Part shown: in pieces, positions 730 to 41,298 of the stretch
Position numbering within the stretch: the stretch's first letter is position 1
How the letters are laid out: each line of letters opens with the position of its first letter
Origin: a bacterium
Lineage (GTDB): Bacteria; Bacillota_I; Bacilli_A; RF39; UBA660
Direction of reading: 5' to 3'
NCBI GenBank assembly: GCA_030525085.1
Contig: JAUNFK010000006.1
Location: forward strand, 1-46,021
Length of the DNA stretch: 46,021 bases
The notes under the pieces: generated by a model
What the model was told of the DNA's origin: nothing
Database searches by the model: none
The model's input: the letters and a program-made list of their open reading frames with translations, nothing else
Translations under genes and position numbers: made by a program

Positions 730-2358
730 ATGAACAAGAAACTACCAATAATTAGCTTTATAATAATAGGATTAACAATAACTTATTTAATAAGTAGGCT
801 TAAAGGACAATTATATGAAGCAAAGTGGAATAATAAAAGCACTCTTGCAATAACAATAAATGGTGAAATTAGTACAACATTTCCAACTACTGCCGCATAT
901 GAGACAAGCGTAGAATGTACTACAGGAACAGGTAAAGTAGAATGGAATGGGAGCAAATGGATTCTCACAACGAGTGGAATAACAAAAGGAAATACTAAAT
1001 GTAATGCGACTTTTGTTACAGCAGCACCTGCACCAGATGGCTGGTATAGTGCTGGAAGTGGTACACTCCTTGCATCATTAAGAGATAATAATGAACTAAA
1101 AACACCTCTTACAACTCCAGGAAAAGAAGTAAGTGCTCATACTAAAGATGATGTTGAAAGCGAAACAGCAAGTGTAGATACAACCGAACAAGCATATTAT
1201 ATAACTTATGGTACTGGTTGGGAAGCAAATGGTACTAAGTTTAATTTAATTGGGGCAGCAGTAACAAGTGGTACATATCCAAATTCATATTCTAGTTTAG
1301 TTGGTAAGTACCTTGTGAGTGATTATATTCCAAGAACGGGTTCAAGTACAGCTGGAACTATGAAAACAACAACTAATTTAAGCAGTGTATATTATGTGGT
1401 AAGTGCTACATCAAGTAGTTTTACATATAAACAAATCACTTCAAACAAAAATACAACTGAGGCGCTTTTAGCAAGTACAGAAGATGATTATGGAACAAGT
1501 TATTATTTTAGAGGTGCTGTAAAAAACAACTATGTACAGTTTGCTAATAAGTGCTGGAGAATAGTAAGAATAGTAGGTGACGTTTCTGTAAAACTTGTTC
1601 TTCATAATGATAATACTTCAAAAGCAGCCAACCCTTGTTCATCAGCAAATAATAGTGAAGATGCAGCATTTGCTAGATACTCTGGTACAACGTATAGAAG
1701 TGCATTTAATACAAATTATAATGATAATGCGTATGTAGGATTTATGTATGGTCAAGTCGGTGCAAGTGATTATGCAAGCACACACGCAAATACTAATAAA
1801 AGTGACAGTCTTAAAAATTTGGAAAAATGGTATACAAAAAATTTAGCACTATATGAAAGTAAACTTGCTGATACGATATGGTGTAATGATAAAAGTACAG
1901 TAAGTGGAGGACTTGGGAAAGGAACTAATGTAACGAATTATGCTGCATATAAAAGAATTAATGGTGGAAGCCCTAGTTTAATTTGCCCTAATGATAATAA
2001 TGGTGGAAAATTATCTAAATTTACTGTTGATGATACAAAGAATGGTAATGGTAACTTAACTTATAAAATAGGATTATTAACTGCAGATGAAATAGCATTT
2101 GCTGGTTCTGTTTATAATACATATAATCTTTCTACGTATTTACGAGAGAATACTGGAACTAAATGGAGTTGGTCTTTGTCGCCTAGCTCCATGACTGGCA
2201 ATTACGCTTTCGTTTGGGAAGTGGGCAGGGGCTACTTGGGTGGCAGCTACGTTTACAGCGACGTCGAAGGCTTTCGACCTGCCATTTCTCTTATATCTTC
2301 AACTAAAGTATCTAGTGGTTCTGGCACCTCAGCAGACCCATACATAGTGTCTATTTAA
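730..2358 (+). CDS. Surface paralogue A: membrane-anchored protein with lectin-like, putatively DGR-diversified C-terminus
   Basis: A 542-residue secreted or membrane-anchored protein. Residues 6-24 form one hydrophobic segment, so it is probably held by its N-terminus. Next comes a short Cys-containing module (FPTT..Y..SVEC...W.G..W.L...KCNATF) also found in paralogue B, then a module starting TLLASLR and containing SAHTKDD that is shared with C. The C-terminal half (DDYGTSYYFRGAVKNNYVQFANKCWRIVR onward) is shared by all three and resembles DUF6273-type domains. It ends in a WSWSLSP...GFRPAISL segment, the layout of a C-type-lectin-like ligand-binding tip. Unlike B and C it lacks a TasA/camelysin-like N-terminal domain. 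Codons 479-520 use a wholly different codon set from the rest of the gene (see the separate entry). The SD is GATAGG before ATG 730. The ligand is unknown; a surface adhesin is the likely role. Confidence 0.7.
   Translation: MNKKLPIISFIIIGLTITYLISRLKGQLYEAKWNNKSTLAITINGEISTTFPTTAAYETSVECTTGTGKVEWNGSKWILTTSGITKGNTKCNATFVTAAPAPDGWYSAGSGTLLASLRDNNELKTPLTTPGKEVSAHTKDDVESETASVDTTEQAYYITYGTGWEANGTKFNLIGAAVTSGTYPNSYSSLVGKYLVSDYIPRTGSSTAGTMKTTTNLSSVYYVVSATSSSFTYKQITSNKNTTEALLASTEDDYGTSYYFRGAVKNNYVQFANKCWRIVRIVGDVSVKLVLHNDNTSKAANPCSSANNSEDAAFARYSGTTYRSAFNTNYNDNAYVGFMYGQVGASDYASTHANTNKSDSLKNLEKWYTKNLALYESKLADTIWCNDKSTVSGGLGKGTNVTNYAAYKRINGGSPSLICPNDNNGGKLSKFTVDDTKNGNGNLTYKIGLLTADEIAFAGSVYNTYNLSTYLRENTGTKWSWSLSPSSMTGNYAFVWEVGRGYLGGSYVYSDVEGFRPAISLISSTKVSSGSGTSADPYIVSI
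2164..2289 (+). other. Candidate DGR variable region (VR) in paralogue A
   Basis: These 42 codons encode W479 to S520. By hand count 17 end in C, 13 in T, 9 in G and only 3 in A, whereas the rest of the gene and the matching parts of B and C favour A/T ends (about 3 C-ending codons in the matching segment of B). GC over 120 of these bases is about 56 percent. Runs of codons such as AGC, TCC, ACT, GGC, AAT, TAC and TTC fit NNY codons derived from AAY by adenine mutagenesis, the hallmark of diversity-generating retroelements. The region lies at the extreme C-terminus in a lectin-like segment, where DGR variable regions usually sit. No template repeat or reverse transcriptase is in the window, so this is inference. 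Confidence 0.5.
2263..2278 (+). repeat. Short inverted repeat at the 3' end of the candidate VR
   Basis: GTCGAA (2263-2268), a 4-base loop GGCT, then TTCGAC (2273-2278): a perfect 6-bp stem inside the coding sequence. DGR targets in Bordetella phage carry a hairpin/cruciform with a 4-base loop just past the VR, so position and loop size match, although the stem is short and could be chance. Confidence 0.35.
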
Positions 2359-9034: not shown

Positions 9035-10837
9035 ATGAACCATGACTTGCGAAAATATAAAAAGAGAATATTAATTTTATGCATAATGCTAGCAGTAGTT
9101 CTTGTTACGAGTGGCATTAGTTATGCAGTATTTACTGGTTATAGCACGCAAACAGACACAAATACTTTAGCTGCCACTTGTATTGATTTCGAATTTAATG
9201 GAACAAACGAAATTAATTTAACAAATAGTTACCCAATAAGCGATTCTAAAGGTTTAGAACAGACTCCTTACATATTTACAATAAAAAACAAGTGTGATAA
9301 TTATATAGAATATTACGTAGTAGCTTCTGTAATTAATACATCAACATCTGCAGAATCTAAATACATTAAAGTATCACTTCTAGGCGATAATGATATGAAT
9401 CCTTCTGTTATAACTAGTCTAAAACAAATTTCAACACCGCAAAGTTTATCTAGCTATAATATCAAAGAAAATTATATCCTAAAAGAAAGAGACGGAATCA
9501 CAAAAAATGAATCAAGGACATTTAACTTTAGAATGTGGCTCGATGCTAATAATGAAAGCATTTGGACAACCGAGAGCCTAGAAAACAAAACTTATCAAGT
9601 AAAAATATCTGTTATTGGAACAGTCAAAGCTAAACCAGTTGATGACCTTTTTGCTTCTGCATTAATCGATGGTAAAGAAAGCTTAAAATTCCCAACAACT
9701 TCAAAATATACAGCTTCTGTAGAATGCACAAGAAACGGTAAAAAAATAGATGCTAATGAAAGTATCACATGGAACGGTACAGAATGGGAATTAAATGCAA
9801 AGATCACTAATGGTAACGTAAGATGCAATGCAACATTTGAAACCACAGAACAAGTAACTCTTAGAGATGCAATACTAACAAATAATGAAATAAGTACACC
9901 AATAACTACACCTGGCGAGCAAGAAGCCGCTGGCTATGAAAGACTATTAGCTGAAACAAAAGATGATTATGGAACATCGTATTACTTTAGAGGAAAAGTG
10001 GATAATAATTATGTACAGTTTGCTAACATGTGCTGGCGAATAGTAAGAATTACAGGTGATGGGTCGGTAAAACTCGTTTTATATAATAACAATTCAAGCA
10101 ACAAAACTGATCCTTGTACATCTGGCACTGGCTCAGTGACAGCATATGCAATCTATGATGGAGATAAATATATGAGTCTTTATAATGAATTATACAGTGA
10201 TAACACTTATATAGGATTTATGTATGGTGATGAAGGGGCAACAAATTATGCTACAACTCATGCAAATATAAATAAAAGCATAGTGCTATCTAATTTAGAA
10301 AAATGGTATGAAAAAAGCTTATCATCATATGAAAGTAAACTTGCTGATACCATATGGTGCAATGATAAAAGCACAACTGCAGGAGTTGGATATGGTACAA
10401 ATTCATCAACTTACGGTGCATACAATAGAATAATTACTACAAAAAAGCCATCATTAATTTGTCCGAACGATAATAATGGTGGAAAACTTTCAAAATTTAC
10501 TGTAAGTGACACAACAAATGGTAACGGTGCACTAACATACAAAATAGGGCTTCTAACAGCGGATGAAGTAGCATTTGCAGGTAGCTATTATGGTGACTTC
10601 GACGATAGTGGATTTACATATCTATATGAAAACGCAACAAGCCAGTGGTGGTGGACCATGTCGCCAATGAATTCTACAGGTTCTGCATTTTTAATGTTTG
10701 ATGTTGCACTTGATCATTTAGGACGCAATTATGTTATGGGTGATGGAACAGGAGCTATAAGACCGGCTATTTCATTAAAATCAACAGTAATTGCAACAGG
10801 TGATGGTTCATCAGGAAATCCATATATCATAAAATAA
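9035..10837 (+). CDS. Surface paralogue B: TasA/camelysin-like domain plus lectin-like C-terminus
   Basis: A 600-residue exported protein. The hydrophobic stretch at about 11-31 ends in SGISYAVFTGYS, like the SipW-type signal peptides of TasA/camelysin proteins. Residues about 32-200 form a TasA-like beta domain (TLAATCIDFEF, YIFTIKNKCDNYIEYYVVAS, ESRTFNFRMWLD). A Cys-containing module shared with paralogue A follows (FPTTSKYTASVEC...VRCNATF). The C-terminal domain (DDYGTSYYFRGKVDNNYVQFANMCWRIVR) is shared by all three and ends with WWWTMSP...AIRPAISLKS. The variable tip uses ordinary A/T-ending codons, unlike A. The AGGGATG region before ATG 9035 serves as SD. It is probably a fibre- or surface-associated adhesin; no SipW peptidase or sorting motif is visible. 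Expression is probably phase-variable through the promoter G-run. Confidence 0.7.
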   Translation: MNHDLRKYKKRILILCIMLAVVLVTSGISYAVFTGYSTQTDTNTLAATCIDFEFNGTNEINLTNSYPISDSKGLEQTPYIFTIKNKCDNYIEYYVVASVINTSTSAESKYIKVSLLGDNDMNPSVITSLKQISTPQSLSSYNIKENYILKERDGITKNESRTFNFRMWLDANNESIWTTESLENKTYQVKISVIGTVKAKPVDDLFASALIDGKESLKFPTTSKYTASVECTRNGKKIDANESITWNGTEWELNAKITNGNVRCNATFETTEQVTLRDAILTNNEISTPITTPGEQEAAGYERLLAETKDDYGTSYYFRGKVDNNYVQFANMCWRIVRITGDGSVKLVLYNNNSSNKTDPCTSGTGSVTAYAIYDGDKYMSLYNELYSDNTYIGFMYGDEGATNYATTHANINKSIVLSNLEKWYEKSLSSYESKLADTIWCNDKSTTAGVGYGTNSSTYGAYNRIITTKKPSLICPNDNNGGKLSKFTVSDTTNGNGALTYKIGLLTADEVAFAGSYYGDFDDSGFTYLYENATSQWWWTMSPMNSTGSAFLMFDVALDHLGRNYVMGDGTGAIRPAISLKSTVIATGDGSSGNPYIIK

Positions 10838-39327: not shown

Positions 39328-41298
39328 ATGAACCAAGAAGTTGCATTAAAAAAATCTAAAAAGAAACTTAAAATATATTATAGTTTATTAATTACCACGC
39401 TATGCCTAATAGCTACATCATATGCATTTTTTACATTATACTTAAGACAATCAGAAGACAATAAAGTTACTGCATTATCATGCTTTAGCACAACACTTAC
39501 CGAAGAAAATAGCGCAATAAATTTATCTAATGAATTTCCAATATCAGATGCAGAAGGATTAAAGAAAAATCCGTTTACATTCAAAATCACAAATAATTGT
39601 TCCAAGTATGTTAGAACATATATTACAATTGATAGCTTAAACGAAGAAAACAACACTTACATATCTAGTAAATATATGAAAGCTAATATATCTATTTCAG
39701 GTACAATAAGTGATCAATCTATATTAATAGGCACGCAAAAGACAAAATTACTAGATAATAATCATAATGGGTATATTCTATTAGAAACAGGCCTTGAACC
39801 AAACGAAAGTAAAGAATATAATTTAAGATTATGGATAGATTATGATACAACCGCACAGCAAGGAGCAAATAAGAAATACCAAGGACAAATCGTCATTGTT
39901 AGTGAACCAGATGAAAACGCTCCAGACAACTGGAATAGTGCTCCAGATGGGACTTTGCTAGCAGCTCTAAGAAATGATCCTCTAAATAAATTAAAAGAAC
40001 CACTAACTGTTCCAGGAAGAGAAATAAGTGCTCACACTAAAGATGATATAAGCGAAACTTCCATAATGAGTATAGATGACACTTACAAAAATTATTACTG
40101 GACATATGGTACTGATTTTTCATCTAACAGTATTTTATTTAATCTAACCAGCACTAAAGTTACATCATCAGTATACAAATACTCATATACTGAGCTTATC
40201 GGAAAATATATTGTTTCCAATGAACCATCAGAAAATAGTGCAAGCACAACTACTCAAATAAATACAAATAATCTATATAGAGTTTTCTATGTCACCAATG
40301 CGACAGAAAATAATTTAACATACAAAGAGGTAACATCTAACAAAAAGAAAAACGAAGCTCTCTTAGCAAGTACAAAAGATGATTACGGAACGTCCTATTA
40401 TTTTAGAGGTGCAGTAAAAAACAACTACGTGCAGTTTGCAAATAAATGCTGGCGAATAGTTAGAATAAACGGAAATGGCACAATAAAAATAGTATTACAC
40501 AATGACAATATAAATAATTCTGCAAATCCATGTTCGTCAATAAATAATGACAAAACCGCAGCATTTGCAAGATACTCTAAATCAGCATATACAAGTAAAT
40601 GGAATGAACTTTATGAAGATAACGCTTATATAGGCCTTATGTATGGCACAACAAACTCATCTAATTATGCAAATACACATACAAATATAAATAAAAACAC
40701 AGTTTTAAATGCTTTAGAATCATGGTATAACACAGCACTTCTTTCATATGAAGATAAATTAGCCGATACCATCTGGTGTAATGATAAAAAAGTAATTACA
40801 ACCTTATCAAATGGTAGTACATATGGAACAGGCCTAGGATATGGCACAAACCAAACTGGTTATAGTGCATATAATCGAATCTCCGGTAGTGACTCAAGCC
40901 TTTATGCTAGCCCATCACTTATTTGCTCAAATGATAACAATAACGGTAAACTATCAAAAATGACAGTAAGTGATACACTATATGGAAATGGAGCACTTAC
41001 TTATAAAATAGGCTTGCTAACAGCCGATGAAGTGGCCTTTGCCGGAGCTAAAAACAATACAGATTATACATTTGCCAATTTAGGAATATATTTACAAGAA
41101 AATACAGGATCAAATTATTGGTGGACAATGTCTCCAGCATATTATCGTAGTGGAGCAAATATATGGTCTGTTAACTCTGGATTTATCGGCACTATCCGTA
41201 TAGATAGTGTCCTTGGTATAAGACCATCAATATCCCTAAAACAAACCGTAACTGCTACTGGAAACGGAACTAGCGAAGATCCGTATATTATAAAATAG
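39328..41298 (+). CDS. Surface paralogue C: TasA/camelysin-like domain plus lectin-like C-terminus
   Basis: The largest of the three paralogues, 656 residues. Hydrophobic segment about 16-33, followed by TSYAFFTLYLRQ, like a SipW-type signal end. TasA-like domain about 35-195 (LSCFSTTLTEEN, FTFKITNNCSKYVRTYITI, SKEYNLRLWIDYD). Then a module with TLLAALR and SAHTKDD matching paralogue A but not B, and the shared C-terminal domain (KDDYGTSYYFRGAVKNNYVQFANKCWRIVR) ending YWWTMSPAYYRSGANIW...GIRPSISLKQ. The tip has ordinary A/T-ending codons. AGGGAG precedes ATG 39328. Probably a surface adhesin, phase-variable through the G9 promoter tract. Confidence 0.7.
   Translation: MNQEVALKKSKKKLKIYYSLLITTLCLIATSYAFFTLYLRQSEDNKVTALSCFSTTLTEENSAINLSNEFPISDAEGLKKNPFTFKITNNCSKYVRTYITIDSLNEENNTYISSKYMKANISISGTISDQSILIGTQKTKLLDNNHNGYILLETGLEPNESKEYNLRLWIDYDTTAQQGANKKYQGQIVIVSEPDENAPDNWNSAPDGTLLAALRNDPLNKLKEPLTVPGREISAHTKDDISETSIMSIDDTYKNYYWTYGTDFSSNSILFNLTSTKVTSSVYKYSYTELIGKYIVSNEPSENSASTTTQINTNNLYRVFYVTNATENNLTYKEVTSNKKKNEALLASTKDDYGTSYYFRGAVKNNYVQFANKCWRIVRINGNGTIKIVLHNDNINNSANPCSSINNDKTAAFARYSKSAYTSKWNELYEDNAYIGLMYGTTNSSNYANTHTNINKNTVLNALESWYNTALLSYEDKLADTIWCNDKKVITTLSNGSTYGTGLGYGTNQTGYSAYNRISGSDSSLYASPSLICSNDNNNGKLSKMTVSDTLYGNGALTYKIGLLTADEVAFAGAKNNTDYTFANLGIYLQENTGSNYWWTMSPAYYRSGANIWSVNSGFIGTIRIDSVLGIRPSISLKQTVTATGNGTSEDPYIIK

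Follow-up and report, generated by a model that had tools for sequence, protein, structure and literature searches.

A codon-usage island at the tip of a lectin-like gene as a very probable orphan variable region of a diversity-generating retroelement

The closest described relatives of the system reported here are known from Treponema denticola, Bordetella phage BPP-1 and Thiohalocapsa PB-PSB1. In T. denticola, one template (TR) and one reverse transcriptase (RT) of a diversity-generating retroelement (DGR) serve the several dispersed surface C-type-lectin targets of the TvpA family, and isolates with targets but without TR or RT have been read as carrying the leftovers of a lost DGR (PMC4891356), which offers a direct precedent for orphan targets. 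Several variable regions (VRs) occur in 28.6% of DGRs, and dozens in a few (PMC6642488), so multi-target systems were already known; a MutS-like DGR accessory protein (MSL, PF01624) had also been described (PMC10053308).

The DGR considered here lies on bacterial contigs and has many targets in trans, unlike that of BPP-1 (Brt, Avd, Mtd), which is phage-borne and has one main target; the two are alike in their TR, Avd, RT and C-type-lectin tip, and the RT and Avd are recognisable relatives. The T. denticola system has 2-7 targets (PMC4891356), compared with at least 11 in the sister species G003 described below; the target families differ, and the T. denticola cassettes carry HRDC-type accessory genes, whereas those found here carry MutS-like and Avd genes. 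With at least 11 dispersed paralogues for a single visible TR, the array is unusually large and falls near the top of the multi-target range. Thiohalocapsa PB-PSB1 shares the multiple loci, the degenerate loci and the diversification in trans, which there is supported by metagenomes, but its targets are putative conflict or sensor proteins (PMC10907252), whereas those described here are surface adhesin-like proteins.

The gene under study (gene A) belongs to a 942,075-base draft genome (G000; 32 contigs, 85% complete) and is located on contig 10, the whole 46,021-nucleotide stretch of DNA that was analysed, hereafter the window. The features of the window referred to in the text are the following:

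730..2358, + strand: gene A, target protein of 542 aa with a hydrophobic N-terminal anchor and a C-terminal lectin-like domain (ORF, paralogues)
730..790, + strand: probable signal or membrane anchor, hydrophobic N-terminal stretch MNKKLPIISFIIIGLTITYLI (translation, judged by eye)
1459..2355, + strand: C-type-lectin-fold domain (AlphaFold2, structural matches)
2164..2289, + strand: proposed VR, an NNY/NNC codon island (codon statistics, adenine-specific mismatch to the congener TR, model)
2275..2292, + strand: 3' end of the VR, CGACCTGCCATTTCTCTT, probable position of the IMH (initiation of mutagenic homing; analogy with other DGRs)
9035..10837, + strand: paralogue B, A/T-coded tip without adenine bias against the TR (A 13/22, non-A 36/74)
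39328..41298, + strand: paralogue C, A/T-coded tip, adenine bias not significant (A 15/26, non-A 36/79)

The original prediction had described positions 2164-2289, near the 3' end of this protein-coding gene, as an abrupt codon-usage island with 30 of 42 codons ending in C or T and three in A, set apart from the A/T-coded tips of paralogues B and C, and both observations were reproduced. Third positions of the island were C in 17 codons, T in 13, G in nine and A in three, compared with T229, A200, G38 and C33 in the other 500 codons of the gene (Fisher tests: C enrichment p = 8e-9, A depletion p = 4e-6). When 12,345 stretches of 42 codons from the long ORFs of the window were compared, the island was the most extreme, being unmatched in third-position C, third-position G+C, total G+C or low third-position A. 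The enrichment in C plus T relative to the rest of the gene was weaker (p = 0.012), indicating that the oddity of the island lies in its C-ending codons and G+C richness more than in pyrimidines alone; the rise in G+C is what NNC codons would give if their first two bases had been randomised.

A lectin-like C-terminus with the island at its tip, also part of the original prediction, was borne out by an AlphaFold2 model of the domain built with 69 family sequences (pLDDT 96.2, pTM 0.94), in which the island corresponds to residues 236-277 and takes in strands 237-246, 249-256 and 259-264, and most of 274-278. VIA-align matched the model to the N-terminal part of an IgA peptidase (Z = 13.2), the fimbrial protein 4eps (Z = 7.1), the LOX-1 CTLD (Z = 5.2) and BPP-1 Mtd (Z = 4.2), and CEL-IV was also among the structural matches; these middling Z values are weak taken singly, but most of the matched rows belong to one fold, and we are confident in modelling the domain as a C-type-lectin fold. 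Several structural matches in BFVD were DUF6273 phage proteins, and a weak profile match to DUF6273/CTLD proteins was obtained for 15 of the 69 A-family members, although gene A itself falls below the Pfam model. The hydrophobic N-terminus suggests that the product of gene A is displayed at the cell surface.

At least 22 paralogues of gene A were identified in its own genome, two of them (B and C) in the window, giving a family of at least 23 whose C-termini nearly all read RP(A/S)I(S/A)L...GTSEDPY or similar. The codon island was found in four of the 23 (gene A, C8:22991, C30:22403 and C8:37967), while the tips of the remaining paralogues are just as variable but A/T-coded. The islands of C30 and C8:37967 have a common 3' end, GTCCGTCCTTCGATTTCTCTT, despite their differing flanks, as expected if the homing sequence had been copied from a template.

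When relatives were searched for RTs, DGR-type enzymes adjoining members of the gene A family were found in two congeners (G002 and G003). The sister species G003 carries on its contig C25 (L113) a complete DGR in the order TR, MutS-like accessory, Avd and RT, followed by two A-family genes; the sequence is identical to that of JAUNFS010000011.1 (L214). The components of this cassette are:

about 391-511: TR, TGGTGGGCTTTGTCCCCTAACGACTTTAATGGCAACAACGCTAACGTTTGGGATGTTAATGGC...AACGGCGTGCGTCCC
MutS-like (MSL) ORF, 143 aa: MutS domain I, PF01624, E = 3e-6
Avd: NF033474, E = 3e-6; phrog_3206
RT, 366 aa: phrog_1423, E = 4e-71; motifs GIGNMTSQ and YMDD

The solved structure closest to this RT was 8ub7 (E = 1e-22), a 328-aa reverse transcriptase chain of BPP-1 Brt length. 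The first settings of an automatic TR/VR finder missed the pair in G003 owing to drift of the VRs in cis, and it was pairwise alignment to paralogues elsewhere that revealed it: against a distant paralogue on contig 18, over 118 gap-free bases, 19 of 34 TR adenines were changed as opposed to one of 84 other bases (p = 8e-12). Eleven of the 24 G003 paralogues, spread over many contigs, were adenine-biased at p < 1e-4. A TR, a DGR RT, an accessory gene and a VR with adenine-specific changes were all found within this one genome.

Further cassettes of the G003 type were detected at G002:C11 and G002:C84, and the congener cassettes either abut the end of a contig or occupy a contig of 4 kb. That of G002:C11 comprises three tandem non-identical TRs with one Avd and one RT; the neighbouring target contains a VR, which differs from the TR at 16 adenines and at no other base over 70 bases. 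On the - strand of this contig (L115, about 3060-2290), each TR has its own leader, TATAGTAGGGTTATGCTA, and the TRs lie upstream of the accessory ORF, Avd and RT; eight of the ten mismatches between TR1 and TR2 within the template involve A, as if the templates themselves had been rewritten. The G002:C84 cassette (L114; 4287-5018, - strand) appears to be decaying, with an internal TAA stop in the RT and a very short TR and VR. In both G003 and G002, the end of TR/VR homology coincides with positions 2275..2292 of gene A, which by its placement probably marks the IMH.

DGRs were also observed in other genera of the family (L116, L118, L123, L124, L125 and L128); their TR/VR pairs differ only, or almost only, at adenines, and their target genes are mostly different. 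A 27-bp inverted repeat (TTGTCCC...GGGACAA) was seen just 3' of several target genes (L113 111-137, G003:C18:25820-25846, G003:C20:12566-12592 and G000:C5), and could act as a terminator or as a homing aid.

The gene A island was compared with the G003 TR by codon alignment with a few gaps, the template thus being that of another species. Adenines of the TR differed in gene A at 20 of 32 positions (62%) and other bases at 17 of 79 (22%; p = 5.5e-5); the 17 non-adenine differences are expected with a template from another species, and TRs clearly differ between the congeners. Of the 18 RAY codons of the TR, 16 are NNY in gene A, including 13 NNC. Pooled, the four islands of the genome differed from the TR at 66% of adenines and 26% of other bases. 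The bias was confined to the islands, given that neither control showed it: the 700 bases before the island differed from the G003 targets at 26-27% of adenines and 33% of other bases, and the 19 A/T-coded tips of the genome differed from the TR at 54% and 46%, respectively. With the cassette standing beside the same gene family in a congener, the adenine-specific mismatches to its template and the C-type-lectin tip, the prediction that the island is a VR written by a DGR was upheld, and we regard it as very probably correct.

Two explanations that dispense with a retroelement were weighed against these data. Ordinary selection, with the codon choice of the tip set by local translational or RNA-structure demands in a rapidly evolving adhesin, would agree with the hypervariability of all the paralogue tips, including those that lack an island; it does not, however, predict that the island should match a non-coding, AAC-rich template of a congener at the non-adenine positions, nor that the codon pattern should be restricted to four of 23 paralogues, and we consider it extremely improbable. 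Gene conversion or horizontal transfer from a G+C-richer homologue, which the original prediction had named as its alternative, would account for a G+C-rich tip in a genome where paralogues are abundant and recombination between copies is possible, but no G+C-rich donor was found in the genome, the best DNA matches being paralogues at 67-79% identity. Such an event would also leave unexplained the concentration of mismatches at template adenines and the recurrence of the same type of island in three other paralogues of the genome and eleven of the congener, and this explanation, though a little less remote than selection, was judged highly unlikely.

It had further been anticipated that a near-copy of 2164-2289, differing mainly at adenines and standing beside an RT gene, would be found elsewhere in this genome; the expectation was not supported, neither template nor RT being found in the 85%-complete assembly. 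Profile searches of that assembly recovered no DGR RT (the RT profile being run without a positive control) and no Avd, for which the same profile does recover the congener copies; in the congeners a DGR RT was present at G003:C25, G002:C11 and G002:C84, and Avd and MSL in G003. Adenine-tolerant patterns of the gene A and C30 islands matched no template in the assembly, a pattern of AAC runs gave no more matches than its reversed control, and a scan of own-genome loci for adenine-substituted copies yielded nothing above the reversed control. The sole RT of the genome, a type III-A/Ec107-like enzyme (G000:C32:7664-8608, - strand; L011), was rejected as a DGR RT, being that of a retron (PADLOC RT_Ec107-like, E = 2e-124; RT_III-A, E = 2e-106); a hairpin-rich stretch within the 200 or so bases upstream of it could be the retron ncRNA. 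A phage origin was likewise discarded, as scans of IMG/VR with the RT, the target and the island pattern returned no relatives.

An orphan DGR leader without a template was located on contig 5 (G000:C5:24924-25164, - strand; L048), co-linear with the G003 region that precedes the TR. Two elements of that region recur here, the 27-bp hairpin element (96%) and the TR leader motif GGCTATAACTAT...TTTATAGTAGGAATTATG; the leader motif precedes every TR found in the genus and is not covered by any Rfam family. A different gene begins directly after the leader, and before it stands the stray tail of a target gene, GDGTSENPYIVEK; leader and tail together are flanked by a target gene on one side and, on the other, by the gene preceding scpA/scpB. 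The site is probably a scar that lost the TR-RT part of a cassette.

Given that the assembly holds no template of its own, gene A was classified as an orphan VR and not as part of a complete DGR; its cassette was either lost or is among the 15% of the genome that the assembly lacks. A working cassette in the unassembled part, which would be compatible with the DGR origin of the island, gains from the incompleteness of the assembly and from the positions of the congener cassettes, at contig ends or on a short contig, so that such cassettes may assemble poorly; against it, the orphan leader, followed as it is by another gene, looks like a site from which TR and RT were lost, which suggests loss. 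We give the working cassette a little less than an even chance.

In the mechanism that we propose for the DGR-written island, a G+C-rich template RNA, rich in AAC codons, would be reverse-transcribed by an error-prone RT that places random bases opposite adenines, and the cDNA would replace the matching 3' end of the target gene, with error-prone reverse transcription and homing presumably proceeding as in BPP-1. Fixed non-adenine bases would result, and the ligand-binding tip of the C-type-lectin domain would come to carry NNC/NNT codons. A single cassette, made up of TR, MutS-like protein, Avd and RT, would in this genus serve many dispersed targets in trans, gene A being one of them, and old islands may decay into A/T-coded tips. 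A broader picture, offered tentatively and with the odds slightly against it, is that of a sub-megabase bacterium in which one template cassette, acting in trans, would write an entire set of over 20 lectin-like surface genes. Each round of retrohoming would leave a G+C-rich NNC imprint, which would decay to A/T-coded codons after retirement of the copy or of the cassette; the tips would then record, in relative terms, how active the DGR had been, the cassette of one congener would have become a tandem library of three different templates, and the lineage of gene A would have lost its writer while still displaying the written repertoire.

The VR of a DGR was thus recognised by codon usage alone, with no template in view, and then verified through a relative. 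The finding adds an uncultured family of Bacilli/Mollicutes type, where at least 11 dispersed surface proteins seem to be diversified by one DGR, as compared with seven in T. denticola (PMC4891356). If it is true that the islands decay into A/T-coded tips, such genomes would record past DGR activity.
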